A DNA stretch of 32,420 nt, from contig NW_003123907.1 of the NCBI RefSeq assembly GCF_000003605.2, forward strand, positions 707,564 to 739,983, read 5' to 3'. The position numbers were made by a program, and so were the translations under genes. Shown here in pieces: positions 1 through 21,990 of this stretch; position 1 is the first letter of the stretch, and each line of letters opens with the position of its first letter. The DNA is from Saccoglossus kowalevskii (taxonomy: Eukaryota; Hemichordata; Enteropneusta; Harrimaniidae). The notes under the pieces are model-generated. The model did no database searches, was not told the origin of the DNA, and worked only from the letters and a program-made list of their open reading frames with translations.

Positions 1-3000
1 CATCAGAAGGGGCGAAATAGAAATAACGATGGAACCAGAATAGGTGAGACACAAATAATGATGACATCAGAAGTTTGCAAAAATACAAATAACGATGAAA
101 CCAGAATAGGTGAGGCACAAATAATGATGACATGAGAAGGGGCGAAAATACCAATAAAGATGAAACCAGGATAGGTGAGAAACAAATAATAATGACATCA
201 GAAGGGGCGAAAATACAAATAACGATGAAACCAGGATAGGTGAGACACAAAGAATGATGACATCAGAAGGGGCGAAAATACAAATAACGATGAAACCAGG
301 ATAGGTGAGAAACAAATAATGATGACATCAGAAGGGGCGAAAATACAAATAACGATGAAACCAGAATAGGTGAGACACAAATAATGATGACATCAGAAGG
401 GGCGAAAATACAAATAACGATGAAACCAGAATAGGTGAGACACAAATAATGATGACATCAGAAGGGGCGAAAATACAAATAACGATGAAACCAGAATAGG
501 TGAGACACAAATAATGATGACATCAGAAGGGGCGAAAATACAAATAACGATGAAACCAGGATAGGTGAGACACAAATAATGATGACATCAGAAGGGGCGA
601 AAATACAAATAACGATGAAACCAGGATAGGTGAGAAACAAATAATGATGACATCAGAAGGGGCGAAAATACAAATAACGATGAAACCAGAATAGGTGAGA
701 CACAAATAATGATGACATCAGAAGGGGCGAAAATACAAATAACGATGAAACCAGAATAGGTGAGACACAAATAATGATGACATCAGAAAGGGGCGAAAAT
801 ACAAATAACGATGAAACCAGAATAGGTGAGACACAAATAATGATGACATCAGAAAGGGCGAAAATACAAATAACGATGGAACCAGAATAGGTGAGACACA
901 AATAATGATGACATCAGAAAGGGCGAAAATACAAATAATGGTGAAATCAGAATAGGTGAGACACAAATAATGATGACATCAGAAGGGGCGAAAATACAAA
1001 TAACGATGAAACCAGAATAGGTGAGACACAAATAATGATGACATCAGAAGGGGCGAAAATACAAATAACGATGAAACCAGAACAGGTGAGACACAAATAA
1101 TGATGACATCAGAAGGGGCGAAAATACAAATAACGATGAAACCAGAATAGGTGAGACACAAATAATGATGACATCAGAAGGGGCGAAAATACAAATAACG
1201 ATGGAACCAGGATAAGTGAGACACAAATAATGATGACATCAGAAGGGGCGAAAATACAAATAACGATGGAACCAGAATAGGTGAGACACAAATAATGATG
1301 ACATCAGAAGGGGCGAAAATACAAATAACGATGAAACCAGAATAGGTGAGACACAAATAATGATGACATCAGAAGGGGCGAAAATACAAATAACGATGAA
1401 ACCAGAATAGGTGAGACACAAATAATGATGACATCAGAAGGGGCGAAAATACAAATAACGATGGAACCAGGATAGGTGAGACACAAATAATGATGACATC
1501 AGAAGGGGCGAAAATACAAATAACGATGAAACCAGAATAGGTGAGACACAAATAATGATGACATCAGAAGGGGCGAAAATACAAATAACGATGAAACCAG
1601 AATAGGTGAGACACAAATAATGATGACATCAGAATGGGCGAAAATACAAATAACGATGGAACCAGGATAGGTGAGAAACAAATAATGATGACATCAGAAG
1701 GGGCGAAAATACAAATAACGATGAAACCAGAATAGGTGAGACACAAATAATGATGACATCAGAAGGAGCGAAAATACAAATAACGATTAAACCAGAATAG
1801 GTGAGACACAAATAATGATGACATCAGAAGGGGCGAAAATATACAAATAACGATGAAACCAGGATAGGTGAGACACAAATAATGATGACATCAGAAGGGG
1901 CGAAAATACAAATAACGATGAAACCAGAATAGGTGAGACACAAATAATGATAACATCAGAAGGGGCGAAAATACAAATAAAGATGAAACCAGGATAGGTG
2001 AGACACAAATAATGATGACATCAGAAGGGGCGAAAATACAAATAACGATGAAACCAGGATAGGTGAGACACAAATAATGATGACATCAGAAGGGGCGAAA
2101 ATACAAATAACGATGAAACCAGGATAGGTGAGAAACAAATAATGATGACATCAGAAGGGGCGAAAATACAAATAACGATGAAACCAGGATAGGTGAGACA
2201 CAAATAATGATGACATCAGAAGGGGCGAAAATACAAATAACGATGAAACCAGGATAGGTGAGACACAAATAATGATGACATCAGAAGGGGCGAAAATACA
2301 AATAACGATGAAACCAGGATGGGTGAGAAATAAATAATGATGACATCAGAAGGGGCGAAAATACAAATAACGATGGAACCAGAATAGGTGAGACACAAAT
2401 AATGATGACATCAGAAGGGGCGAAAATACAAATAACGATGAAACCAGGATAGGTGAGAAACAAATAATGATGACATCAGAAGGGGCGAAAATACAAATAA
2501 CGATGAAACCAGAATAGGTGAGACACAAATAATGATGACATCAGAAGGGGCGAAAATACAAATAACGATGAAACCAGAATAGGTGAGACACAAATAATGA
2601 TGACATGTGAAGGGGCGAAAATACAAATAACGATGAAACCAGGATAGGTGAGAAACAAATAATGATGACATCAGAAGGGGCGAAAATACAAATAACGATG
2701 AAACCAGAATAGGTGAGACACAAATAATGATGACATGAGAAGGGGCGAAAATACAAATAACGATGAAACCAGGATAGGTGAGAAACAAAGAATAATGACA
2801 TCAGAAGGGGCGAAAATACAAATAACGATGAAACCAGAATAGGTGAGACACAAATAACGATGACATCAGAAGGGGCGAAAATACAAATAACGATGAAACC
2901 AGGATAGGTGAGAAACAAAGAACAATGACATCAGAAGGGGCGAAAATACAAATAACGATGAAACCAGGATAGGTGAGACACAAATAATGATGACATCAGA

Positions 3001-6000
3001 AGGGGCGAAAATACAAATAACGATGAAACCAGAATAGGTGAGGCACAAATAATGATGACATCAGAAGGGGCGAAAATAGAAATAACGATGAAACCAGAAT
3101 AGGTGAGACACAAATAATGATGACATCAGAAAGGGCGAAAATACAAATAACGATGGAACCAGAATAGGTGAGACACAAATAATGATGACATCAGAAGGGG
3201 CGAAAATACAAATAATGATGGAACCAGGATAGGTGAGAAACAAATAATGATGACATCAGAAGGGGCGAAAATACAAATAACGATGAAACCAGGATAGGTG
3301 AGAAACAAATAATGATGACATCAGAAGGGGCGAAAATACAAATAACGATGAAACCAGAATAGGTGAGACACAAATAATGATGACATCAGAAGGGGCGAAA
3401 ATACAAATAACGATGAAACCAGGATAGGTGAGACACAAATAATGATGACATCAGAAGGGGCGAAAATACAAATAACGATGAAACCAGGATGGGTGAGAAA
3501 TAAATAATGATGACATCAGAAGGGGCGAAAATACAAATAACGATGGAACCAGAATAGGTGAGACACAAATAATGATGACATCAGAAGGGGCGAAAATACA
3601 AATAACGATGGAACCAGAATAGGTGAGACACAAATAATGATGACATCAGAAGGGGCGAAAATACAAATAACGATGAAACCAGGATAGGTGAGAAACAAAT
3701 AATGATGACATCAGAAGGGGCGAAAATACAAATAACGATGAAACCAGAATAGGTGAGACACAAATAATGATGACATGAGAAGGGGCGAAAATACAAATAA
3801 CGATGAAACCAGGATAGGTGAGAAACAAAGAATAATGACATCAGAAGGGGCGAAAATACAAATAACGATGAAACCAGAATAGGTGAGACACAAATAACGA
3901 TGACATCAGAAGGGGCGAAAATACAAATAACGATGAAACCAGGATAGGTGAGAAACAAAGAACAAAGACATCAGAAGGGGCGAAAATACAAATAACGATG
4001 AAACCAGGATAGGTGAGACACAAATAATGATGACATCAGAAGGGGCGAAAATACAAATAACGATGAAACCAGGATAGGTGAGAAACAAATAATGATGACA
4101 TCAGAAGGGGCGAAAATACAAATAACGATGGAACCAGAATAGGTGAGACACAAATAATTATGACATCAGAAGGGGCGAAAATACAAATAACGATGAAACC
4201 AGAATAGGTGAGGCACAAATAATGATGACATCAGAAGGGGCGAAAATAGAAATAACGATGAAACCAGAATAGGTGAGACACAAATAATGATGACATCAGA
4301 AAGGGCGAAAATACAAATAACGATGGAACCAGAATAGGTGAGACACAAATAATGATGACATCAGAAGGGGCGAAAATACAAATAACGATGGAACCAGGAT
4401 AGGTGAGAAACAAATAATGATGACATCAGAAGGGGCGAAAATACAAATAACGATGAAACCAGGATAGGTAAGAAACAAATAATGATGACATCAGAAGGGG
4501 CGAAAATAGAAATAACGATGGAACCAGAATAGGTGAGACACAAATAATGATGACATCAGAAGGGGCGAAAATACAAATAACGATGAAACCAGAATAGGTG
4601 AGGCACAAATAATGATGACATCAGAAGGCGCGAAAATAGAAATAACGATGAAACCAGAATAGGTGAGACACAAATAATGATGACATCAGAAGGGGCGAAA
4701 ATACAAATAACGATGAAACCAGGATAGGTGAGACACAAATAATGATGACATCAGAAGGGGCGAAAATACAAATAACGATGAAACCAGGATAGGTGAGACA
4801 CAAATAATGATGACATCAGAAGGGGCGAAAATACAAATAACGATGAAACCAGGATAGGTGAGAAACAAATAATGATGACATCAGAAGGGGCGAAAATACA
4901 AATAACGATGAAACCAGCATAGGTGAGACACAAATAATGATGACATCAGAAGGGGCGAAAATACAAATAACGATGAAACCAGGATAGGTGAGACACAAAT
5001 AATGATGACATCAGAAGGGGCGAAAATACAAATAACGATGAAACCAGGATAAGTGAGACACAAATAATGATGACATCAGAAGGGGCGAAAATACAAATAA
5101 CGATGAAACCAGGATAGGTGAGAAACAAAGAATAATGACATCAGAAGGGGCGAAAATACAAATAACGATGAAACCAGAATAGGTGAGACACAAATAACGA
5201 TGACATCAGAAGGGGCGAAAATACAAATAACGATGAAACCAGGATAGGTGAGAAACAAAGAACAATGACATCAGAAGGGGCGAAAATACAAATAACGATG
5301 AAACCAGCATAGGTGAGACACAAATAATGATGACATCAGAAGGGGCGAAAATACAAATAACGATGAAACCAGGATAGGTGAGAAACAAATAATGATGACA
5401 TCAGAAGGGGCGAAAATACAAATAACGATGAAACCAGAATAGGTGAGACACAAATAATGATGACATGAGAAGGGGCGAAAATACAAATAACGATGAAACC
5501 AGGATAGGTGAGAAACAAAGAATAATGACATCAGAAGGGGCGAAAATACAAATAACGATGAAACCAGAATAGGTGAGACACAAATAACGATGACATCAGA
5601 AGGGGCGAAAATACAAATAACGATGAAACCAGGATAGGTGAGAAACAAAGAACAATGACATCAGAAGGGGCGAAAATACAAATAACGATGAAACCAGGAT
5701 AGGTGAGACACAAATAATGATGACATCAGAAGGGGCGAAAATACAAATAACTATGAAACCAGGATAGGTGAGAAACAAATAATGATGACATCAGAAGGGG
5801 CGAAAATACAAATAACGATGGAACCAGAATAGGTGAGACACAAATAATTATGACATCAGAAGGGGCGAAAATACAAATAACGATGAAACCAGGATAGGTA
5901 AGAAACAAATAATGATGACATCAGAAGGGGCGAAAATAGAAATAACGATGGAACCAGAATAGGTGAGACACAAATAATGATGACATCAGAAGTTTGCAAA

Positions 6001-9000
6001 AATACAAATAACGATGAAACCAGAATAGGTGAGGCACAAATAATGATGACATGAGAAGGGGCGAAAATACCAATAACGATGAAACCAGGATAGGTGAGAA
6101 ACAAAGAATAATGACATCAGAAGGGGCGAAAATACAAATAACGATGAAACCAGAATAGGTGAGACACAAATAACGATGACATCAGAAGGGGCGAAAATAC
6201 AAATAACGATGAAACCAGGATAGGTGAGAAACAAAGAACAATGACATCAGAAGGGGCGAAAATACAAATAACGATGAAACCAGGATAGGTGAGACACAAA
6301 TAATGATGACATCAGAAGGGGCGAAAATACAAATAACGATGAAACCAGGATAGGTGAGAAACAAATAATGATGACATCAGAAGGGGCGAAAATACAAATA
6401 ACGATGGAACCAGAATAGGTGAGACACAAATAATTATGACATCAGAAGGGGCGAAAATACAAATAACGATGAAACCAGGATAGGTAAGAAACAAATAATG
6501 ATGACATCAGAAGGGGCGAAAATAGAAATAACGATGGAACCAGAATAGGTGAGACACAAATAATGATGACATCAGAAGGGGCGAAAATACAAATAACGAT
6601 GAAACCAGAATAGGTGAGGCACAAATAATGATGACATCAGAAGGGGCGAAAATAGAAATAACGATGAAACCAGAATAGGTGAGACACAAATAATGATGAC
6701 ATCAGAAAGGGCGAAAATACAAATAACGATGGAACCAGAATAGGTGAGACACAAATAATGATGACATCAGAAGGGGCGAAAATACAAATAACGATGGAAC
6801 CAGGATAGGTGAGAAACAAATAATGATGACATCAGAAGGGGCGAAAATACAAATAACGATGAAACCAGGATAGGTAAGAAACAAATAATGATGACATCAG
6901 AAGGGGCGAAAATAGAAATAACGATGGAACCAGAATAGGTGAGACACAAATAATGATGACATCAGAAGGGGCGAAAATACAAATAACGATGAAACCAGAA
7001 TAGGTGAGGCACAAATAATGATGACATCAGAAGGCGCGAAAATAGAAATAACGATGAAACCAGAATAGGTGAGACACAAATAATGATAACATCAGAAGGG
7101 GCGAAAATACAAATAACGATGAAACCAGGATAGGTGAGACACAAATAATGATGACATCAGAAGGGGCGAAAATACAAATAACGATGAAACCAGGATAGGT
7201 GAGACACAAATAATGATGACATCAGAAGGGGCGAAAATACAAATAACGATGAAACCAGGATAGGTGAGAAACAAATAATGATGACATCAGAAGGGGCGAA
7301 AATACAAATAACGATGAAACCAGCATAGGTGAGACACAAATAATGATGACATCAGAAGGGGCGAAAATACAAATAACGATGAAACCAGGATAGGTGAGAC
7401 ACAAATAATGATGACATCAGAAGGGGCGAAAATACAAATAACGATGAAACCAGGATAGGTGAGAAACAAATAATGATGACATCAGAAGGGGCGAAAATAC
7501 AAATAACGATGAAACCAGAATAGGTGAGACACAAATAATGATGACATCAGAAGGGGCGAAAATACAAATAACGATGAAACCAGGATAGGTGAGACACAAA
7601 TAATGATGACATCAGAAGGGGCGAAAATACAAATAACGATGAAACCAGGATGGGTGAGAAATAAATAATGATGACATCAGAAGGGGCGAAAATACAAATA
7701 ACGATGGAACCAGAATAGGTGAGACACAAATAATGATGACATCAGAAGGGGCGAAAATACAAATAACGATGGAACCAGAATAGGTGAGACACAAATAATG
7801 ATGACATCAGAAGGGGCGAAAATACAAATAACGATGAAACCAGGATAGGTGAGAAACAAATAATGATGACATCAGAAGGGGCGAAAATACAAATAACGAT
7901 GAAACCAGAATAGGTGAGACACAAATAATGATGACATCAGAAGGGGCGAAAATACAAATAACGATGAAACCAGAATAGGTGAGACACAAATAATGATGAC
8001 ATGAGAAGGGGCGAAAATACAAATAACGATGAAACCAGGATAGGTGAGAAACAAATAATGATGACATCAGAAGGGGCGAAAATACAAATAACGATGAAAC
8101 CAGAATAGGTGAGACACAAATAATGATGACATGAGAAGGGGCGAAAATACAAATAACGATGAAACCAGGATAGGTGAGAAACAAAGAATAATGACATCAG
8201 AAGGGGCGAAAATACAAATAACGATGAAACCAGAATAGGTGAGACACAAATAACGATGACATCAGAAGGGGCAAAAATACAAATAACGATGAAACCAGGA
8301 TAGGTGAGAAACAAAGAACAATGACATCAGAAGGGGCGAAAATACAAATAACGATGAAACCAGGATAGGTGAGACACAAATAATGATGACATCAGAAGGG
8401 GCGAAAATACAAATAACGATGAAACCAGGATAGGTGAGAAACAAATAATGATGACATCAGAAGGGGCGAAAATACAAATAACGATGGAACCAGAATAGGT
8501 GAGACACAAATAATTATGACATCAGAAGGGGCGAAAATACAAATAACGATGAAACCAGGATAGGTAAGAAACAAATAATGATGACATCAGAAGGGGCGAA
8601 AATAGAAATAACGATGGAACCAGAATAGGTGAGACACAAATAATGATGACATCAGAAGGGGCGAAAATACAAATAACGATGAAACCAGAATAGGTGAGGC
8701 ACAAATAATGATGACATCAGAAGGGGCGAAAATAGAAATAACGATGAAACCAGGATAGGTGAGAAACAAATAATGATGACATCAGAAGGGGCGAAAATAC
8801 AAATAACGATGAAACCAGAATAGGTGAGACACAAATAATGATGACATCAGAAGGGGCGAAAATACAAATAACGATGAAACCAGAATAGGTGAGACACAAA
8901 TAATGATGACATCAGAAGGGGCGAAAATACAAATAACGATGGAACCAGGATAGGTGAGACACAAATAATGATGACATCAGAAGGGGCGAAAATACAAATA

Positions 9001-10653
9001 ACGATGAAACCAGAATAGGTGAGACACAAATAATGATGACATCAGAAGGGGCGAAAATACAAATAACGATGAAACCAGGATAGGTGAGACACAAATAATG
9101 ATGACATCAGAAGGGGCGAAAATACAAATAACGATGAAACCAGGATAGGTGAGAAACAAATAATGATGACATCAGAAGGGGCGAAAATACAAATAACGAT
9201 GAAACCAGAATAGGTGAGACACAAATAATGATGACATGAGAAGGGGCGAAAATACAAATAACGATGAAACCAGGATAGGTGAGAAACAAAGAATAATGAC
9301 ATCAGAAGGGGCGAAAATACAAATAACGATGAAACCAGAATAGGTGAGACACAAATAACGATGACATCAGAAGGGGCGAAAATACAAATAACGATGAAAC
9401 CAGGATAGGTGAGAAACAAAGAACAATGACATCAGAAGGGGCGAAAATACAAATAACGATGAAACCAGGATAGGTGAGACACAAATAATGATGACATGAG
9501 AAGGGGCGAAAATACAAATAACGATGAAACCAGGATAGGTGAGAAACAAATAATGATGACATCAGAAGGGGCGAAAATACAAATAACGATGAAACCAGAA
9601 TAGGTGAGACGCAAATAATGATGACATGAGAAGGGGCGAAAATACAAATAACGATGAAACCAGGATAGGTGAGAAACAAAGAATAATGACATCAGAAGGG
9701 GCGAAAATACAAATAACGATGAAACCAGAATAGGTGAGACACAAATAACGATGACATCAGAAGGGGCAAAAATACAAATAACGATGAAACCAGGATAGGT
9801 GAGAAACAAAGAACAATGACATCAGAAGGGGCGAAAATACAAATAACGATGAAACCAGGATAGGTGAGACACAAATAATGATGACATCAGAAGGGGCGAA
9901 AATACAAATAACGATGAAACCAGGATAGGTGAGAAACAAATAATGATGACATCAGAAGGGGCGAAAATACAAATAACGATGGAACCAGAATAGGTGAGAC
10001 ACAAATAATTATGACATCAGAAGGGGCGAAAATACAAATAACGATGAAACCAGGATAGGTAAGAAACAAATAATGATGACATCAGAAGGGGCGAAAATAG
10101 AAATAACGATGGAACCAGAATAGGTGAGACACAAATAATGATGACATCAGAAGGGGCGAAAATACAAATAACGATGAAACCAGAATAGGTGAGGCACAAA
10201 TAATGATGACATCAGAAGGGGCGAAAATAGAAATAACGATGAAACCAGAATAGGTGAGACACAAATAATGATGACATCAGAAAGGGCGAAAATACAAATA
10301 ACGATGGAACCAGAATAGGTGAGACACAAATAATGATGACATCAGAAGGGGCGAAAATACAAATAACGATGGAACCAGAATAGGTGAGACACAAATAATG
10401 ATGACATCAGAAGGGGCGAAAATACAAATAACGATGGAACCAGAATAGGTGAGACACAAATAATGATGACATCAGAAGGGGCGAAAATACAAATAACGAT
10501 GAAACCAGAATAGGTGAGAAACAAATAATGATGACATCAGAAGGGGCGAAAATACAAATAACGATGGAACCAGAATAGGTGAGACACAAATAATGATGAC
10601 ATCAGAAGGGGCGAAAATACAAATAACGATGAAACCAGAATAGGTGAGAAACA
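1..10653. repeat. 65-bp satellite array, about 164 units
   Basis: A 65-bp unit repeats head to tail from the first base. On the plus strand each unit reads acaaataatgatgacatcag, then a G-rich stretch (aaggggcgaaaat), then acaaataacgatgaaaccag, then a variable g/aataggtgaga(c/a)ac. The consensus is about 48% A and 72% purine, so the strands are strongly asymmetric. Units differ by a few recurring substitutions (gaat/ggat, gagacac/gagaaac, gatgaaacc/gatggaacc, tcag/tgag). Rare length variants are +1 near 81, +1 near 787, +2 near 1850 and +1 near 5999. Since 65 is not a multiple of 3, the many ~60-codon minus-strand frames are by-products. The array continues beyond the left edge. It could be pericentromeric or interspersed satellite; the sequence does not decide. 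Confidence 0.98.
6572..7339. repeat. Long-range duplicate block within the satellite (copy of 4166-4933)
   Basis: About twelve consecutive units here carry the same series of unit-specific variants, in the same order, as 4166-4933. They include the otherwise unique aaggcgcg variant (about 4626 and 7032) and the ccagcat variant (about 4917 and 7322). The offset is 2406 bp, that is 37 units plus one inserted base. A second pair, 8197-8704 and 9692-10199, shares the rare ggggcaaaaat variant at an offset of 1495 bp (23 units). These are block-level copies within the array. Confidence 0.85.
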
Positions 10654-10740
10654 AAGAATAATAACACCGAAATAAGGTAAAACATAAAGAATCTCGATAT
10701 CAGAAGGGCTGAAACCTATAGAACGATAAAACCAGTTCAA
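10654..10740. repeat. Degenerate right edge of the 65-bp satellite
   Basis: The last copies are recognisable but diverged. Blocks such as caaagaataataacaccgaa, gatatcagaagggctgaaac and gaacgataaaaccag still align to the two halves of the unit, with many substitutions. This is the usual pattern at a satellite boundary, where homogenisation by unequal exchange is weakest. Unique sequence begins at about 10,741. Confidence 0.85.
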
Positions 10741-13290
10741 GCACTTTTGTATAAATAGTTGAGCAGAAATTCACCCGACCTCGCCGTCATGCAGACATGG
10801 TTTAATACCATTAAATCTAGAAAAATATTGATTTTCAATCTGATGAAATTGCTAGAAACACGTATTGATCATCATCTGTCATTTCTTTCTCCAATACTCA
10901 CCGGGATTCCTCATTCAACAGCAAAGTTTTCCGGAGTGATCGATATCTTCGGTCAATAATCACGTTAATAGCAAGGAGTAAATGCACTGGACTGAATGGT
11001 AAATGCCAAACACGAATGCCAGACACATAGTCGGATAATGATTATAATTATAATGTTAAAAACTCAATTTTAAATTGTATATAATTTCGAACCAAGGGTG
11101 CGTTTTTCGTAAAATAAACGGACCATATGATGATATATGGGCTTTCAGGTTTTGTTCTCCCACTGGACACTTAGAACACTACTGGCACGGTAACGTTAGT
11201 GCCGACGCTGTGGTTGAAATCCCCATATGAAAGCAGCAAAATGCGACGATGACTGTGCTGTGTACACAAGTCGTAATCTTAATTGTTTTTGCATGATAGT
11301 CTCTACGCTACTTTATCAGGATAAACAACCATCGATTTTATCCCCATTAATGTAAGACTAGAGGAGTTTTTCTTAGTCTACGTCAACGAAGACACCACGG
11401 ACAAATGTCCTATTTTTTCTGAAAACGCCAAAAATACTATTCATATCTAGTAATACTACTCATATCACCAATGTTGATTTCACCGGTACAATATAGTTGT
11501 TTCCGCGTAATACATTTTTTATTTTTCTCTAAACTACAGACTGAAAAATAAATCTATGTTAATGGTTCCAAAGTTTGGGGTACTTTTACATATCTTATCC
11601 AAATAAATTTTTCAGAGAGAAGATCAAGTAAATATTGAGGAAGGAAGTGGTTAAATAATTAACGAATGTGGAAATTTCAAAAACACTACAAAATTCTTGA
11701 TATTTTCTGAAGTCAAATGAAGGACGGAAAATCGGGTGTACCCGAACTTGTTTCCATGGAAACTATGACTTTGCGATTTCCTTATATCGCTCAACCCGTA
11801 CTTTGGCGTCAACCTCGCGTTCTTTTTTTTCGGAATTTAAAACAGCAAAGAATAAATTACCAAAGTTTTAAGGATATTCCTGTTCCAATATGTGTGAGCC
11901 ACGTCTATTCATAATGTACTATCATGGACGTTTCGTATTTCAAGTATGAAACACAGTTTTCTCTTTTTGCAATAACAAGACGATGGCGAATGACAACTGG
12001 AAATTGATCAAATGCATAATCCACGGTTTATGTGACGTGATCAACATGCATATCGGCACTGATACAGACACGCATGACTCGCACTCACGAGGTCACCAGG
12101 TGAGAACGTGTTCAGTTGAAGGAATCATACTGACATCGTCTGATTAAAGGTCGAATAGTTTATCATTCGAGATTTCAGCTCGAATCCATCAATATTTAAC
12201 ATATCTTCGTCGATGCCACTTTCGCATTTAAATGGAATTCACGTTTCACAATCTATGGATTTTCGTTCAAAGCAAAGAGGAATTACTCTCCCTTCAATAT
12301 TATATGCAATGCGGTGATCGAAGCATACTAAAACGGACACGAGAATATATTATGATCAAAGATACACAGTACAACCCGGGTAAAATAAAACACTTTCGAT
12401 GAATGATTTAATACTGAACTATGAAAATGCGACCAAATGATATAACTCCATCTGTAGTATAGGTAGCCTAATTTTATGTTCGCTTTTAAATTGCCTGCAG
12501 ACATGTGTGCGCATGCGTACACGTATGATGATGTCGATGTCTATTTCCGAAAACGGCTACACATGTTTCCGTCTCAAAAGTACTACCTTCAATTGTAATT
12601 AAGCTATGCGGCGTCTGATAATGGGTTATTATAAGAAATATCCAATCTTATAGAACGTAGTGTATATTTCAAATACTAGTATATGTATTAGAAACACCAC
12701 GAAAATGTGTAAGTTTACATAGCAATTACGCTTAGCGCATGAATACAACTTTAGAAGTTACATTCTGCATAAATACAAGTGTGGCCGGGGTGACAATTAT
12801 CATAAATACAACGAGAGATGTGTGTGTATACTGGAATAAACGTACAGCCATGAAAAATGATTGACAATGGTGGCGCTATTCTTGAAAGCCGTAATCAGAG
12901 TTTTATAACTATGTCAGCATGTTATTACATTCAAGCGCCAATAAAAAATGGGTTATCACAATGACGATGGTAAAAGGGCTAACTTTGTTTGTCATCGGGT
13001 TTGTCAAGTGATTTCAGATATATTATTGTTTTCCCATCCTTGTGAAATGTATACATACATTTTCAATACTGTCCGCGCTATTTTGTTATTGTTTCTCGCG
13101 TATTCGGAACAGAAAATATACAACTGACCAGTATAAATTTTGGCTATAGAACAATGGTAATCAGATCTGGGCTGTCAATTAAATGTTAGTCACACCACAC
13201 TGTAGTAATGAACGTGTGGCCAGAATTCTTATGAACATTGATCTATGCACTGTGACACTTGTGACTTTTACCTGGTTTCAGAAAAAATCA
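10741..13290. other. Unassigned intergenic sequence
   Basis: No recognisable gene, RNA or transposon terminus was seen on either strand. Frames of 60-66 codons occur (10,759-10,959; 11,717-11,914; 12,328-12,522 minus), but none resembles a family I know and none shows convincing splice signals. The only structural feature noted is the alternating purine-pyrimidine tract near 12,501. Confidence 0.6.
12501..12527. other. 27-nt perfect alternating purine-pyrimidine tract
   Basis: From 12,501 to 12,527 every base alternates purine and pyrimidine, including gtgcgcatgcgtacacgt. Such tracts can adopt Z-DNA under negative supercoiling. The centre also contains tgcgcatgcg, close to the NRF1 recognition sequence, so regulatory use is an alternative. 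No neighbouring gene is evident. Confidence 0.55.
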
Positions 13291-13294
13291 ACTT

Positions 13295-13312
13295 AATCAA
13301 TCAATCAATCAA
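13295..13312. repeat. Short (AATC)n microsatellite
   Basis: About four and a half tandem copies of aatc, with no other context of note. Confidence 0.8.
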
Positions 13313-13439
13313 TTACTTAATGAATGCATGGCGTATTTGCACTGTTGATACTATATACTATGAAATATCACTCGCATATGTGGTTTTACTAGTACGCATC
13401 ACATGATTACACTTCAAACACATGTCAATCTGGTACATG

Positions 13440-13905
13440 GACTATATCGAATAATAATTAATCGCATAGTAATGTTATCGAGAACAAGCTCATTGATTAA
13501 AAAGTCATCGCTGTACTTCAAATGGTTGAGACATCTGCCAGAGATATGGCAATCCGATTCCGACATTGTCGAGGACGTAAATAAGTAGGTCATCTACATA
13601 TACTGTAAACAAATGAGATGACAAAATACCAGTTTAGGGCGTTCACTTAGAAAGTAACCTCATCTGACATTAAATTGTCGGTGTCTATAACTAATATACA
13701 ATAACCCTGACATTAACTGTAGGAATACCTTTCTCGAGTAATTTGCGAAACAACATCCAGTGTTTCACATGACCAAAGGTTTAAAAACATAAAAGACAGA
13801 ACTCTTACTGCGCTGGTTAAATGTTGCCTTGAGCAATATTATACACATATGAATTGACCTACCTTTCCTAAACCCGCCTGTAAGTAGCAACGATTCAATA
13901 ATATG
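13440..13905 (-). pseudogene. Non-LTR retrotransposon reverse transcriptase fragment
   Basis: Read on the minus strand in shifting frames, this stretch gives a series of peptides in the order expected of a LINE-type reverse transcriptase. First is TGGFRKGRS (about 13,886-13,855), like the GFRKGRST motif. Next is GHVKHWMLFRKLLEKGIP (about 13,775-13,720), like the segment after KAFDxV. Then comes GILSSHLFTVYVDDLL (about 13,625-13,580), like QGGILSPxLFxVYxDDL. Last is CHISGRCLNHLKYSDDF, whose YSDD (coded at 13,501-13,518) sits where the catalytic YADD box is expected. Stops and frame changes separate the pieces, so it is dead. Only ~150 codons remain; no endonuclease domain, 3' tail or target duplication was found. 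The clade is uncertain (Jockey/CR1-like order). Confidence 0.75.
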
Positions 13906-14139
13906 ATGTCATAAAATTCAGATATAGCAATAGACATAGGTCTTATAGTTACTAGAGTTCGTAATATTAATAATAATTATTACTATTATACATCTGTCAT
14001 CGTTACGTCCTAAGTTACAACGTGCCGTAATTTTGCGGTCCAAATATGGAGGATTACGCGCGTGAGCGTCCTTTAATAAAAAAAACAAAACATGACACAA
14101 CGAACTTTTGGATTTAGGCATTTCCATGAGGTATCCGTG

Positions 14140-14406
14140 CAAGGGCGGTAGGCAAAAGTGCCTGGGTTAATACAATACTAGAAATAATACATGGCATGGC
14201 CGCGCGCTTTTTGAAAACGTTTGAATGTAGGACGCTTTCACACCCGCTGTTCATAATAATAGACGGGGTATAACAAGACTCAAGCTGACCAATAGGTGTT
14301 CGACATATAGAACACGTGACCAGCCATTTTTCATTAAAATAAATCGTCAACATTTAAAAATTGTCATCCATTCTGGCTTATCTTACACTTAAGCCTACCG
14401 CCCTTA
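14140..14406. mobile_element. hAT-like MITE, 267 bp
   Basis: The element opens with aagggcggtaggc (14,141-14,153), and its exact reverse complement gcctaccgccctt closes it (14,393-14,405). After two mismatches a further aagtg matches, giving a ~20-bp terminal inverted repeat. The immediate flanks share atccgtg (14,133-14,139 and 14,407-14,413), a 7-bp target duplication, or 8 bp with one mismatch. Ends of the form C/T-AAGG fit the YARNG consensus of hAT termini, and hAT elements duplicate 8 bp. The interior encodes nothing recognisable, so it is non-autonomous. The 79-codon minus-strand frame inside it is incidental. Confidence 0.75.
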
Positions 14407-14413
14407 ATCCGTG

Positions 14414-16458
14414 GGAGGAAAAGACAGTAAGCCGTCGCATCGACCTCCGCTGCGCGTCGGTTGATACTTCGCAGTTCTGTCTTCTTGCATACCTTTCGGT
14501 ATGCTTGTAATAACCTCATAATAAAACGCTTATGTGAGTAATTGATACGCCATGTACACCATTGGAACCGAAGACTAGATCATAGTAGTTTTTGGTTACA
14601 CTGTTCAAACTCTTTCGAGTAACGATCATATTTTGTGTGAAACCAGCATCATGTAGTTCTAACAAGGTATAATCTTATCGGTATTGTCCGATACTGGAGG
14701 CAACAAAGTATCAAAATGGTCCCACCACACATTAGCAATATCACCATGTTCACTAGAACCGTCAATAATGGATGATAAATTCGTTGATTTTTTTTTAAAT
14801 CACCCATTTATGAATTAAAATGCTCGGCGACAAAGTTCAATCGCCCGAAGTTCATTTCGCTAGTCACCGATCTTGATAACTCAATGATGTAATCAAGCTG
14901 TTCGGCGATTTATGAATCACGTAGAAACTTTGCAAAACATCCTAGTACTTAAGAGGCTGAAATAGTGATGGCGCCCTCGGTATACGGTAGGGTGGCAGAT
15001 GGGTTGGACGTACCGTAGACGGCGTCATACCAATACTCCATCAAATGATAAGCAAAGTGGAGCGTGTCTGTTTCACAATATCAGTGTTGATGACGTATAA
15101 ATGAACTAGGTCCTTTTATAGTAATGCCAGTGTTTGTTCATATTGCTCAAGTAGCACGTTAAAGTAGTGAGTAATATAATTATACACTTATAACATTCCA
15201 AAATTATCATTACTCCAGAAGCAGAAGTTATTTCAATATCGTCATTACTGATAAGCAGAGATGAATGGTCCTGAAAGTTCGCTTTACGTCATACCGGATG
15301 AAGAGCACACTAGATATATTTGGCGTTTATGAGTAATTTCGAAAAAGTTGCCATAACATCCGAATTTATTTAATGGTCATGTTTTAAATATATATCAATT
15401 TTCTCACGCGACGAATATTTTACTTGTTTAAAATGGATGAAAAAAAACAGAGTTGCACAATTCTATAATTTAATACTACAATGTTTTATCATACAATATA
15501 CAAAACATAGTGTAACATTATCTGGAAAATCGTTTAGGTCTAAAGGGTATATTTACTTTAAAATATTTGTATACGTGGTGCTCGTGGGGGTCCGATATGT
15601 TTTCAGTATTTAATATATGTATGGTGTAGTCGCACTCTGCATAGGCTGTGTCAAACGCGAACATACCGGAGCTGTGGCAGTGAGTTGAACATAAATCATG
15701 ATTCGACGCTGACAGTGTGTGTAATCGGTACTGCCATTTATGGATGGCGTCCGTTGAAAAGCTGGGTACGGGTCGATTGTAAGTTCACGAACTAGATACA
15801 TCAAGTTTCGATTCATGATGATAAATACTCCAAACTAGATAAATCATTGTTAATGGTATCTTACTGTAATTCTATCAACTAACACCATTCGCTTGACTAC
15901 ATCTCAGGGCACTTTTCATTATCAACGACCTGAGACCGTGGCGAACTACGGCCTCTAATAAAATTATTCCATTGTATCAGATAGCGAGTACCTCACCACT
16001 ACAAGTCGAATACATTATCACGTATATTTCAAAAACATTACCTGGCTTTCAATTAAAGCTTTCAGTGACCAACTAACAACTGTAAATTATTCCACCGCAT
16101 GCACGCGTCTTGGGTTCGTTTTCTCTGAATTAGGAGTTTCATTCGAAAGCATCTTCGAGATAAGGAGGAGGGGGCTTATTGTAACAAATGATAATTAAAA
16201 CAGATAAACACACATGTGCAAATCGTAACTTTAATATTTAATGTTGCCAATTTAAATCTAGATTGACATAATCGAAATCACAACACGATCTACTCTAGGC
16301 TATTTTAAAGATGGAAGGGTTAATCACATTGGTGTCATTTTTATAAAAACGTGGGTGATAACTGTTCAAAACTGTATTCAAGTAAATTTCAGAATTGTTC
16401 CTAGTTCATACGGAAGCTTATTAGGGACATACATGAAAATAAAAAAAATAATTTAAAA
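14414..16458. other. Unassigned intergenic sequence
   Basis: No recognisable coding or transposon signal was seen. A perfect 7-bp hairpin (gcatacc, loop tttc, ggtatgc) lies at 14,487-14,504. A 68-codon minus-strand frame at 15,610-15,816 is not similar to any family I recognise. Confidence 0.55.
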
Positions 16459-16731
16459 CTCGTGACCACGACTTACTATCTCGTGGCCACGACTTTGTAT
16501 CTCATGGCCACGACTTTATATCTCGTGGCCACGACTTTGTATCTCGTGGCCACGACTTACTATTTCGGGGCCACGACTTTGTATCTCGTGGCCACGACTT
16601 ACTATTTCGGGGCCACGACTTTGTATCTCGTGGCCACGACTTACTGTCTCGTGGCCACGACTTACTATTTCGGGGCCACGACTTACTATTTTGTGGCCAT
16701 GACTTACTATTTCGGGGCCACGACTTACTAT
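16459..16731 (+). repeat. Left terminal minisatellite: 13 units of 21 bp
   Basis: Exactly thirteen 21-bp units were counted. Each has a palindromic core (best form tcgtggccacga) followed by a spacer cttactat or ctttgtat. A second core variant, ttcggggccacga, occurs in units 6, 8, 11 and 13, which breaks the palindrome. Because 21 is divisible by 3, the array is open on both strands (114 codons plus, 93 codons minus). These frames are simple seven-residue repeats and not a protein. The first unit carries gtgacc and the twelfth ggccat variants. Confidence 0.93.
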
Positions 16732-16834
16732 ACTAAGTATTTCAAATCGACAGTTGATATCACAAAAATACAATATGTTTTTCATCACATTGACCACATA
16801 ATATGATTTACATTCCTACAGTACTAAAGTAGCC

Positions 16835-18248
16835 ATGGCAGACCAATTATAAGACTTTTTGAGACGTCGTGGTGTATCAAGAGGGGTGATAAATAAGCTG
16901 AGAGGTGATAAGATACTTTTTTCTACAAATTGGCTGAGCCAATGTGTGTGGATTTTGAAACGTTGCAATCAGACACAGCCATTCCATGTACTAGCACAGG
17001 TGTTACAAAGGAAGACCATCGAACACCTGTATTGGATAACCTAGAACACTACCAAGTAGACAGAGAACTACCTGGTCCAAGTACAGATCCTACTAAAGTT
17101 GAAAAAGCTTTGTATGATGATGATGATGATGATAGCATCAATTCAGGCATAGTCCACTTTTGCAGTGATGTGCTATTACAAGGTAGTCTCAGCAATTTTA
17201 ATGATACTATCCCTAACACTGAAACCATGCATGACCTGGAAATTCCACATCCTGGGGGGATGAATACGTATGATTGTGATACATAGAAGCAACATTCTGG
17301 AAGACATGTTGAAAGTATTTTCTGACCCTGGTATTCTTGCTGAAGATATTGATATAAGATTGGTATTGCCGGACAGTTCAGCCATGGAATAGGCAGTTGG
17401 TAGTGGAGTCATTAGAGAGTGTTTCACCGCCTTTTGGATGGAGTTTTATGAACGTTGCACTATTGGAAACATATACAGAGTTCACACGTAGTTCATGGGA
17501 AGCAGTGGGCAGAATTATTGTCAAAGGTTCCTATTTAGCTAAATACTTCCTAACTGCCTTAGCACAGCCATTTATCATGGAAGTTTTTCTAAAGGAAGTA
17601 AATATTCAGCGTGATTCCCAGCAGTTACTTGAAGCTCACTTTCTGTTTGTACCCGAAAGCGAGCGTGAGGTGTTTCATCAGGCAATTTCTGATTGTAATG
17701 CAGTAGATGAGGAAGATCTTACTGATGCTCCAGATAACTATCAATGCCGGAAGTTGCCCAGTGCTGATAATATGCGTGAAATTAATTTGGAGATTGCTCA
17801 CAAAGAGATTATACAGGAACCTATGTTTGTTGCAGACTGTTAGAGAAAAATACTTCTACCACTTTCCAGTACTATTTGTAGCGACAATATCAACAAGTTC
17901 TATGAGGACAAAAAGCCCAACCCAAAGAAAGTTATAAAGCAGTTACAGTTTCCAGACCAAATGAATACAAAAGAAAAGATAGTGGAGAACCATTTACAGA
18001 GGTATATACGTGAAATTGATGGATCATTGTTGAAGAGCTTTCTACGTTTCATTACTGGATCTGATCTGATGCCTGAGGATCCTCTAAACATATCATTTGT
18101 CAAGCTGTCTGGTATAAGTCGTCGTCCAGTAGCACATACCTGCTCAAATTTACTGGAACTGCCTTCATCATATGACAGCTATCTAGACTTTAGAGCCAAA
18201 TTCACAACCATTTTGAATGCTGGTGTTTGGGTGATGGACATTATTTAG
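16835..18248 (+). pseudogene. G2E3-like HECT-type E3 ubiquitin ligase, pseudogene
   Basis: HECT ligases form a thioester with ubiquitin through a C-terminal cysteine and pass it to a substrate. The last 430 bp read in one frame as FLRFITGSDLMPEDP, then RRPVAHTCSNLLELP, and end WVMDII. The cysteine of HTC (18,141-18,143) is at the catalytic position. Upstream, CFTAFWMEFYERCTIGN and SSWEAVGRIIVKG match the N-lobe of G2E3-like HECT domains common in fish and invertebrates. The start chosen is ATG 16,835 in a good context (agccatgg), beginning MADQL, then FLRRRGVSRGVINKL, like the short N-terminal helical domain of this family. Lesions: TAA 16,850; frame loss near 16,915; an extra G in the G6 run 17,254-17,259; TAG 17,390; a frameshift near 17,470; TAG 17,841, probably from a tryptophan codon. 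A GAT run (about 17,116-17,135) codes for an acidic tract. No intron is needed. Confidence 0.85.
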
Positions 18249-19216
18249 AAAGAGAAAATGTTTAGTTGCATTGCACAGAAAGTTTATTTTCACTTGCTAT
18301 CCTTGTGTCGAAATTGCTTGTATTTGACATGTTTTTTGTTTTATCCACATGTATCCGATTGTTCGGATCAAGAGGCAGTCATTAATGCCCTATTTATGTC
18401 GTTTATCAGTAATCTCGGAGACATGAGAATCATGCTATCAACACAAGAGCAGTTATAACAGTTACATTTCAAAATACTGTTGCGTTGTGTTACATAAATC
18501 GTTCATAAATCACCTACTTTGCTATCAGTGACCATTAGTATTGAAGGAAAGAAGCATGCCTTACCGTTTTTTCTATTATAAATCATGTTTTATCTATTAA
18601 TATTTTGTTCGTTTCTCCTCTTGTTATGGTATTGAATTTCAGTGACTATTACATATATTCACATGTCTTGGACCAGACGTTCAGTTTTAGCTGCATTGAC
18701 CACATGTACGACGTTGGTATGTTTTACTTGTTACTGTATACGTTGTTGTTTGAATATTCAAGTGTTATTTTATTTATTAATACAAATGAAATATTCGTAA
18801 TTCATCGTTTCCAATTGCGTTAGTCAGTGATGCAATCTCATATCTAAATTTGCTAAAATTCACCCGAAAGCTACTTTCAAATTAATTAAACTCTCAATCG
18901 ACATTTGTCTGCAATTATTATTAAATTTTTACCCACGGTGTGTATGAATATTTGTTCAAATCACACAGTATATCATGATGAATATAGCAATTTATTCAAA
19001 TCAAATCAAACGTGAATATTTACTACAAAAAATACTACCATCTTTGATTGAAGTTTGTTTATGCAATTACGTAGTAGGCTACGGATATTTGAAAACAACG
19101 TGCATAAATGACCACAACAACTACTCCCTCATCTTCTTTTGAACAAACGCCATGTTACCAAATTAATATATCCAGGGACCCCCAATTTTTTCAAACGCAA
19201 CATGATTACAGTATCG
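18249..19216. other. Spacer between the two convergent transposon pseudogenes
   Basis: No recognisable domain was seen. Two plus-strand frames of 66 and 72 codons (18,258-18,458 and 18,605-18,823) are AT-rich and hydrophobic in composition without family resemblance. The stretch probably held the 3' untranslated regions of both genes. Confidence 0.5.
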
Positions 19217-19550
19217 TCAAGCCAGCGCCTGTATGATAGCAGTGCGCAAGTCAATGTATAGTTCGGCAGCTTGATATGCATCTATCGGGACATCTCTGTT
19301 GATTTCCATCATAATTATACAACACAATTCAAAAATATCTTCGTCACTCACAAGGATATGCGCCTTTAAACGCACACTCCTCTTTACATGCCTCGATTTC
19401 GGTTTCCGACACAGGCAAGGAGAAATCTTCGGCTCCAAATAGTTGTGGACAACTACAAAGCATAATCGGCCGACCATTCGGAACAATTTGGTTGCGTGTT
19501 GGACGCATCCTATGTGCGCTCCATACTGAAACTACCTCGTCCAATACTTC

Positions 19551-20061
19551 TTGGAAAATAGTTAAAGACAGTAAAGTATAAGTATAGTCGTAACATTACA
19601 ACTTCTGTTCACACTAGTAAATTGATTTGGTATAAATTGATATATTCACGATTAGGGCAAATTGTCATGATTTTGTTATGGTGATTTACACTGANNNNNN
19701 NNNNNNNNNNNNNNNNNNNNNNNNNNNNNNNNNNNNNNNNNNNNACATTACAACTTCTGTTCACACTAGTAAATTGATTTGGTATAAATTGATATATTCA
19801 CGATTAGGGCAAATTGTCATGATTTTGTTATGGTGATTTACCACTGAAAATGCGGTAAAACACTAAATGTTTAAAGAACTTAAATTAATTTTATATTAGC
19901 CAACTCATAAAAATGAATTAACAAAGCACATTGGTTAAGAAAATTGACATAAAATGTGGAAGTTGGTGGTGAGTTTCAAAATCACATTTCAATATATCCA
20001 TGGCTACTGTAGTTATATTTTAATACTCTCAATGTTCATACTTAATATTTAATTTTCGTAC
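19551..20061 (-). other. Putative intron of the integrase pseudogene
   Basis: The donor is GTACG at 20,061 leftward, after CAG. Protein similarity stops exactly there and restarts in phase at 19,550. The interval is AT-rich with no domain similarity. It contains the 50-N gap and its duplicated flank, so its true length is about 150 bp shorter than shown. The expected AG acceptor is AA, consistent with decay, or the splice site may lie a base or two away in a damaged phase. Confidence 0.6.
19695..19744. other. Assembly gap (50 N)
   Basis: Fifty consecutive Ns. The 102 bp before the gap (19,593-19,694) recur immediately after it (19,745-19,847) with a single one-base difference (gatttacactga against gatttaccactga). 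The gap is therefore most likely an unmerged contig overlap and not missing sequence. Confidence 0.95.
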
Positions 20062-20904
20062 CTGAATCATTGCAGTAAAACAGAAACGTATCAAATTTTT
20101 ATCCAATGCAGTACCATCAAAATAACCATCATCTTCAATTTTCTGAAAAATATTCATCCAGAATTGACTGTTTTCTCTTCTCAATATTCCCCACCAGGAT
20201 TAAATTCTCTGATTAGTTGGACTTGTTCCATATAAAAAGGCGGGCACTGGAAGTGAATTATCATCTTTTCGTAGAAACTTCTAAAATAGTTCTACGTGGC
20301 CGTTCTCGGTCCCGAAATCTCCTCTCACGATCTTAGGGCATGCTTGATTATTTTCGACTGCTGTAATGTAGTAACTTGCTATGACTTTGGGTTCACTATT
20401 AGTTCGAAATGCTTCTAACCACATTATTTTACGAGAGTATCCATCGATTGCACCGTTTATGCAAATTCAGTATGGTTTTAGCTTGTCGTATATGCCATAC
20501 GAAATTTGGCCCAAATGAACGGTATGCTCGTCTACGTAGTCGATGTCTTGAACGCAGTGCTACGCCTTCGGGTCCAAGTCTTTAATGATTCGTTTTACAG
20601 TCTTTCGAGTTGTACTAATCCCATTTTGATTGCAGACTAGATGCATCCAACGGTATCCAAGAAGTTGACCTGATCCACTTAACTGTTGTTCAATAAACCG
20701 TACAGCATCATCGTCAGTTCTATTCTTGCGACGAAAAAGTCTTAACTTAGCTAAAATACGTTTTAAATGACTCACACTAATATCATTGATATGATGCTAG
20801 TATGAAACATATCAACATATAGTTTAAACCAAGGTTGAAATAACGGGCTATCAGCTGTTCCCTTTCCATGTCCATGTCAATAACGGCAGTCAATAGTAGC
20901 CGTG

Positions 20905-20967
20905 ATAGTAAGTCGTGGCCACGAGATAGTAAGTCGTGGCCACGAGATAGTAAGACGCGGCCACGAG
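20905..20967 (-). repeat. Right terminal minisatellite: 3 units of 21 bp
   Basis: Three 21-bp units (20,905-20,925, 20,926-20,946, 20,947-20,967), plus a degenerate partial unit from 20,893. Each contains cgtggccacgag or a variant, followed by the atagtaag spacer. They are the reverse complement of the left array at 16,459, as expected for terminal inverted sequence of a transposon. The outermost unit has the variants gacgcggccac. Confidence 0.93.
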
Positions 20968-21034
20968 ATAGTTGTTACGTCAGCAGATGATGAAAGTTAA
21001 ATAATCTAGTATTATACATGTGCATGCCTAACAG

Positions 21035-21990
21035 GGTTGGTTTCTGCACTGTTGCGATTTAACGCGACACACTACGCGTTTCATGATTCAACGCGCCACA
21101 CGACGGTTTAACGCGCCACACGACGATTTAACGCGCCACACGACGGTTTAACGCGCCCCACGACGGTTTAACGCGCCACACAACGGCTGTAACGATTAAA
21201 CGCACCGCACAACGCTTGTGACGATTTAACACCTCACGACTAAAACGATTCAACGATTTAACGATTTAACGATGGATGTGACGATTCAACGCACAACACG
21301 TCGCAATTCGACTGTGACGATTTAACGCGCCACAAGATGGATGTGACGATTTAGCGCGCCACGAGACGGGCGTGACGATTTAACGCGCCGCAATTCGACT
21401 GTGACGATTTAACGCGCCACGAGACGGCTGTGACGATTTAACGCGTCGCAATTCGACTTCGACGAGTTAACGCGCCACAAGATGGGTGTGACGATTTAAC
21501 GTGCCACAAGACGGGTGTGACGATTTAACGCGTCACGAGACGGCTGTGACGATTTAACGCGTCACGAGACGGCTGTGACGATTTAACGCGCAACATGACG
21601 GCTGTGACGATTTAACGCGCCGCAATTCGACTGTGCCGATTTAACGTGCCACAAGATGGGTGTGGCGATTTAACGCGCCATGAGACGGATGTTACGATTT
21701 AACGCGCCACGAGACCGTTGTGACGATTTAACGCGCAACACGACAGTCGTGACGATTTAACGCGCAACAAGATGAATATGACGATTCAACGCGTCACAAG
21801 ACGACTGTTACGATTTAACGCACAACACAAGGGCTGCTACGACTCAATGCGCCACACGACGACTGTGACGATTTAATGCGTAAATGAAGATTGTGACGAT
21901 TCAACGCACAACACGACGGCTGCGACTATTCAACGCCTCAGACGATAGCAGTGACGACTTAACGCGCCACACGACGGCAGTGAACCAACC
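21035..21990. repeat. CpG-rich 20/29-bp tandem array with inverted-repeat ends
   Basis: The motif cgatttaacgcgcc recurs about thirty times. Near the left (about 21,080-21,185) the spacing is 20 bp. From about 21,290 on it is mostly 29 bp, the longer unit containing an added ctgtgacga segment. Sub-variants include acgcgtcac, acgcgcaac and gccgcaattcgac. The array is bracketed by ggttggtttctgcactg (21,035-21,051) and cagtgaaccaacc (21,978-21,990), inverted relative to each other apart from a 4-bp insertion. This suggests a tandem-repeat-filled non-autonomous element; no target duplication was identified. No reading frame persists. Confidence 0.85.

Follow-up and report, generated by a model that had tools for sequence, protein, structure and literature searches.

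A degenerate DNA transposon in Saccoglossus kowalevskii with convergent genes for an rva_4 integrase and a HECT ubiquitin ligase

A 32,420-nucleotide stretch of the genome of the hemichordate Saccoglossus kowalevskii (RefSeq assembly GCF_000003605.2, contig NW_003123907.1, positions 707,564 to 739,983; this whole stretch is called the window below) contains, at positions 16409-20972, a dead DNA transposon with two genes. Its genes, both now pseudogenes, converge: one, on the + strand, encoded a HECT domain and the other, on the - strand, an integrase of the Pfam family rva_4 (PF24764). On either side of the pair lies an array of palindromic 21-bp units, the two arrays being inverted relative to each other (Table 1). 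We consider it highly probable that this copy, now truncated, belongs to a kind of IS3EU-like cut-and-paste transposon in which two convergent genes are the rule, one for an IS3/IS481-type DDE transposase (rva_4) and the other for a HECT ubiquitin ligase. Matches to the Pfam rva_4 profile, ends that begin TACGG and the lack of an HHCC motif together suggest the IS3EU-like placement.

A preliminary description of the window, made from its letters, had proposed that a HECT and an integrase pseudogene converge inside inverted palindromic arrays, over the span 16459..20967. The Pfam domains and the arrays, of 13 and 3.3 units, agree with this architecture. The element is real but its limits needed revision: on the left, its inverted repeat begins at 16409, and on the right its array reaches 20972, with no terminus left beyond. 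The unit core TCGTGGCCACGA, allowing 2 mismatches at most, occurs 16 times in the window, 13 times in the left array and 3 times in the right one, compared with 0.45 occurrences expected.

Pairing of rva_4 and HECT genes across the genome

We searched the S. kowalevskii genome (572 Mb in 4830 contigs, the window being C1648:707564-739983) with Pfam profiles, and found 59 rva_4 matches at 45 loci and 67 HECT matches at 33 loci. By these matches alone, 9 of the 45 rva_4 loci lie no more than 4 kb from a HECT domain, and the two genes are convergent in all nine; assuming uniform placement, 0.03 pairs are expected within 6 kb. With more sensitive HECT queries the number of rva_4 loci paired within 4 kb is 13 of 45, with gaps of 0.95-3.9 kb, and again every pair is convergent (13/13). 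A tblastn search added two convergent pairs, on C1912 and C408, whose integrases are outside the Pfam rva_4 matches.

As a control we used the integrase profile rve, for which 150 matches were scored among 244 candidates (one of them, on C330, overlaps an rva_4 match). None of the 150 is within 250 kb of a HECT match, the only one on the same contig as a HECT match (C4069) being 255 kb away, and none is on a contig with a HECT match from the more sensitive queries. The expectation in the preliminary description, that relatives of the two genes would repeatedly lie convergently within 5 kb of each other, is therefore borne out.

Our list of transposon-type HECT loci has 26 members, of which 4 came from the Pfam search, 17 and a further 4 from more sensitive queries, and 1 from tblastn. 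Nine of the 17 (on C289, C598, C1174, C1407, C1554, C1775, C2070, C4547 and C4704) have no rva_4 match within 6 kb, and are possibly orphaned or domesticated copies. On C4704, rva_4 and HECT are separated by 15 kb.

The two genes

A 134-residue piece of the window HECT pseudogene, including an HTC motif, matches PF00632 with 40 bits (cut-off 23.9) over profile positions 197-298. Scores at other loci are 31.8 (L046), 40 (L069) and 34.8 bits (L070), and 46.5 bits over profile positions 30-304 (L072). The HECT domain thus exceeds the curated cut-off and has its catalytic Cys. Within the window's family Pfam picks up only the C-lobe of HECT; C2470 has a 333-codon HECT frame with a PF00632 match across profile positions 30-304. 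The catalytic TC is invariant in all six aligned C-lobes, two of which are from the window's family. The best match in the PDB is HUWE1 (E = 0.0014), among 38 weak matches. Pfam places the window gene as HECT only, and "G2E3-like" was a label of the preliminary description; a SAM-like N-terminus, which we had suspected, is without Pfam support. The gene is disrupted by stops and frame changes, and about 0.85 kb that is present in relatives is gone. We rejected intron loss as an account of this gap, because relatives show that the deletion covers an intron together with coding sequence.

On the - strand, a 61-residue piece matches rva_4 with 33.6 bits (cut-off 26), or 59 bits across a longer stretch that contains three stops. 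Comparing it by eye to an open copy on C4815, we see a frame change at what we take to be the first catalytic D, and a TAA stop (20200-20202) in place of the presumed catalytic E.

Copies of the window family and their ends

As a DNA query, the window element has 96 matches in its own genome; among the contigs hit are C4815 (two copies), C231, C3944, C1912, C408, C2070, C3950, C4175, C993 and C4188. Both genes are recognizable and convergent in the two C4815 copies and on C231, C1912 and C408. In the stretches that we fetched, only the integrase is present at C3944 and C2070, only HECT at C3950 and C4175, a 24-residue integrase fragment beside a run of Ns at C4188, and neither gene at C993. 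One C4815 copy (L046) is free of stops, with a 300-codon integrase frame that includes D, D and E, a 124-codon frame for the C-terminal exon and a 680-codon HECT frame; its first HECT exon is separate. By eye, this copy seems to be inserted in mariner-like transposase sequence (L046:1-293).

The preliminary description also predicted that the gene pair would be found between the same arrays. Arrays are on both sides of the pair in the window and C4815, as predicted, but on one side only in the fetched parts of the C231, C1912 and C408 copies.

The sequence at the left end of the window element also forms the end of other copies, on C4815 (two ends), C4188 (0 errors), C3944 (2 errors) and, in more diverged form, C231 (4) and C1644 (7). 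Its outer sequence TACGGAAGCTTATTAGGGACAT is on the HECT side in the window copy and on the integrase side in C4815 (two ends), C231, C3944 and C4188, and this placement on opposite sides in different copies is as predicted for a terminal inverted repeat. When as many as 3 mismatches are allowed, the end sequence is found 5 times in the whole genome and its reversed control 0 times. Seven ends of the window's family begin with TACGG, each copy having one end at most; two further, more diverged ends begin with TAT (C408) and TAC (C255, by eye).

Past constraint, and distances of the two genes

Using the open C4815 copy as a reference, we estimated ratios of nonsynonymous to synonymous change (dN/dS) in seven comparisons for HECT and six for the integrase. 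The HECT values are 0.82, 0.66, 0.71, 0.66, 0.59, 0.59 and 0.61, of which the first reflects four changes only; with L047 (nearly identical) and the window copy removed, the remaining five span 0.59-0.71. The integrase values are 4.08, 0.77, 0.52, 0.73, 0.52 and 0.82. In 5 of the 13 comparisons (three HECT and two integrase, hand-picked among the more diverged ones) we tested whether the proportion of synonymous differences (pS) exceeds that of nonsynonymous differences (pN), and found P = 0.002, 3 x 10−5 and 0.002 for HECT, and P = 0.005 and 0.008 for the integrase. Because most copies are decaying, these values are evidence of past constraint and not of its strength. Integrase and HECT distances among four lineages (without C2470) are ranked similarly (rho = 0.81), and only 1 of the 24 permutations, the true one, reaches this value.

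Relatives outside Saccoglossus

A scan of genome contigs returned three integrase relatives among 24 stretches, all of them in a single Cycloclasticus bin from a poecilosclerid sponge. These contigs (L073, L074 and L075; LWTN01000118, 139 and 127) contain rva_4 transposases, one with a 441-codon frame, and presumably are sponge DNA, that is, eukaryote-like transposons in the published bin of a Cycloclasticus symbiont. On these three contigs, each 3.4-4.2 kb long, no HECT match rose above chance (E of at least 0.44). Past the integrase frame there is 1.0 kb of sequence in L073 and 2.2 kb in L074, and L075 ends near the frame; with these flanks, the evidence for rva_4/HECT pairing comes from one genome only. 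By eye, L074 additionally contains a frame that resembles a retroelement polymerase. Among viral contigs we found no relative of the array or of the two protein pieces; a degenerate DNA pattern returned 7 stretches, none convincing, and the integrase alignment returned 56 stretches, 0 of which were confirmed.

Integrase-side arrays at other loci

We surveyed the integrase side for tandem arrays in the window family, at the eight best-scoring of the 45 rva_4 loci, at C3831 and C2470, and in the three sponge contigs. Arrays are present in nearly all readable lineages, and by eye their unit sequence varies from lineage to lineage. Their periods are 21 bp (window family, L011 and L014/L015), 22 bp (L010/L070), 26 bp (L013), 20/41 bp (L072) and 33 + 53 bp (L071), and L008 has a weak 22-bp array of 2.7 copies. 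Among the sponge contigs, L074 has a 23-bp array, L075 has 2.9 copies of a 21-bp unit, and none was seen in L073. Arrays could not be read at L009/L069 (contig end) or L012 (N run). Eight other HECT loci, the best Pfam matches (L061-L068), have no array with a period of 15-70 and a score of 100 or more.

Two stretches on contigs that are absent from the rva_4 and HECT matches, L057 (about 1966-2217, on C2717) and L060 (about 883-1060, on C3496), have arrays of a related family, with core CTCGAGATCTCGA, a similar CTTAYTAT spacer and, by eye, a similar end repeat TATGAAAGCTCATTGGGGACAT.

Interpretation

Beyond the window copy itself, we tentatively propose, with somewhat less than even confidence, that IS3EU-like transposons of animals have long had HECT as a second gene for transposition, that their transposition works via the host ubiquitin system, and that many "host" HECT genes of invertebrates and fish are transposon genes or derived from them. 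In the two-gene element as we read it from the window copy, the transposase would bind the array of palindromic 21-bp units, which would give it many sites near each end; 21 bp is about two helix turns, which would place bound dimers on the same face of the helix. Least certain are the steps that involve HECT, which would be kept by selection as a second transposition gene, and would ubiquitinate the transposase itself or, at the element, a host factor for silencing or repair.

Several observations weigh against reading the window element as a copy of a two-gene IS3EU-like transposon. HECT is lacking within 6 kb of 32 of the 45 rva_4 loci, and 13 of our 26 transposon-type HECT loci have no rva_4 within the same distance; these unpaired loci may be due to decay, to introns or to short contigs. 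The pairs are partly non-independent, because the two C4815 copies share one array, and C862 and C3022 look near-identical by their translations. The integrase dN/dS of 4.08 comes from the two nearly identical C4815 integrases, which have 1 synonymous and 14 nonsynonymous differences, and one of which has two stops. Target duplications, looked for in C231, C3944, C4815 and C408, and empty sites were not found, no fetched copy retaining both ends. Lastly, inverted-repeat termini were seen in the window's family only, and the other paired lineages showed only the integrase-side array.

The same 13 HECT loci without a detectable transposase, and the fact that HECT domains are common in host proteins, would fit a HECT gene captured from the host as passive cargo with no role in transposition. 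We regard this as unlikely, because the convergent layout is repeated where identity of the transposase core to the window family's is only 26-43% (43% for C3831, 26% for C746 and 26% for C3022), and because constraint on HECT coding sequence and an invariant catalytic TC are unexpected for a useless passenger.

It is more doubtful still that the unit derives from Ginger1/Ginger2 or from a retroelement integrase rather than from IS3EU. Matches to rve do exist, below the cut-off in L046 (18 bits) and L070 (18.8 bits) and above it in a sponge protein (38 bits), but the three proteins that match both profiles score far higher with rva_4 (82, 235 and 267 bits). In addition, the region upstream of the core has, by eye, no HHCC zinc motif in L046 and L073, whose proteins gave only weak helix-turn-helix matches under the cut-off, and the TACGG ends are as in IS3EU. 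Finally, Pfam detects at least 33 HECT loci in this genome, which also has many mobile elements, but chance landing of transposons beside members of a large host HECT family is very hard to reconcile with nine pairs, all convergent, the unpaired rve control, and the enclosure of both genes by inverted arrays in the window and C4815.

If HECT is indeed a second transposition gene, ubiquitin ligation would join the functions carried by DNA transposons, and experiments could ask directly how such a protein deals with host control or with the transposase of its own element. It would also supply a mechanism for HECT gene expansions, which could be checked through rva_4 neighbors and TACGG-like ends. 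The preliminary description had raised the possibility that the HECT protein countered host control or tuned transposase stability, and had also suggested that the transposon would explain the number of G2E3-like HECT genes in some animals; the latter fits the 13 of 26 transposon-type loci that have rva_4 within 6 kb, but not the other 13, and it concerns one species only. The subterminal arrays, often near a 21-bp period but divergent in sequence, would predict a mode of transposase binding.

Features of the window

Coordinates in the window are collected in Table 1. Identical 97-bp copies at 19593-19689 and 19745-19841 are on either side of the 50-bp N run, and this arrangement (19593-19841) is probably an assembly join that doubled one sequence. 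Outside the element, positions 1-10666 are a satellite with about 164 copies of a 65-bp unit, which accounts for nine open frames of 125 codons there. At positions 21085-21983 there are minisatellites with 20-bp and 29-bp units, similar to AACGCGCCACACGACG, which start about 110 bp past the right array and adjoin the truncated end.

Table 1. Parts of the transposon, in window coordinates.
Feature	Position	Strand	Basis
Left terminal inverted repeat, outer part; begins TACGG	16409..16458	+	Same sequence at ends of other copies
Left subterminal array, 13 units x 21 bp, core TCGTGGCCACGA	16459..16731	.	Repeat analysis
HECT exon 1, pseudogene with one stop; splice donor GT changed to AT	16835..16912	+	Donor by eye; open relative in L046
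Rest of HECT pseudogene; sequence from exon 1 to 16930 deleted relative to relatives	16930..18248	+	Comparison with relatives
HECT C-lobe piece with HTC motif	17844..18245 (about)	+	PF00632, 40 bits
Integrase C-terminal exon, upstream limit approximate	19217..19556	-	By eye against L046:1814-2185
N run within integrase intron, between identical 97-bp copies	19695..19744	.	Sequence
Integrase exon 1, pseudogene, including rva_4	20062..20875	-	Limits by eye
Right subterminal array, 3.3 units x 21 bp, inverse orientation; outer terminus beyond it missing	20904..20972	.	Repeat analysis

Comparison with known transposons

A literature search, which left Repbase entries outside its scope, found no report that joins IS3EU with HECT. 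An accessory gene of the ubiquitin system has a parallel in the KDZ (Kyakuja, Dileera and Zisupton) DNA transposons, which are said to carry a SUMO-protease-like gene, but their transposase is unrelated to that of the window family and the accessory gene is for a protease instead of a ligase.

The closest likeness is to IS3EU/GingerRoot elements, which are described as having an rve-like DDE transposase with no HHCC motif, TA..TA termini, and target duplications that are usually 6 bp (PMC10045372). What sets the Saccoglossus elements apart is HECT as a recurrent second gene and the long palindromic arrays in subterminal position; neither "HECT" nor "subterminal" appears in the main text of that paper. 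Fungal IS3EU termini are given as TAYGG..CCRTA (Kojima 2025, PMC12730594), and the ends of the window family, those covered by our comparison, are of this TA..TA type. The fungal TET+ IS3EU elements share with the window family both these ends and a second enzyme gene oriented opposite to the transposase, as described in the same paper, whose main text is without the words HECT and ubiquitin. The passage on gene orientation says just that it is opposite, whereas the order here is convergent, and the enzymes differ: the fungal elements have an alpha-kinase gene and a TET/JBP dioxygenase (PMC12730594), and the window family has a HECT ubiquitin ligase.

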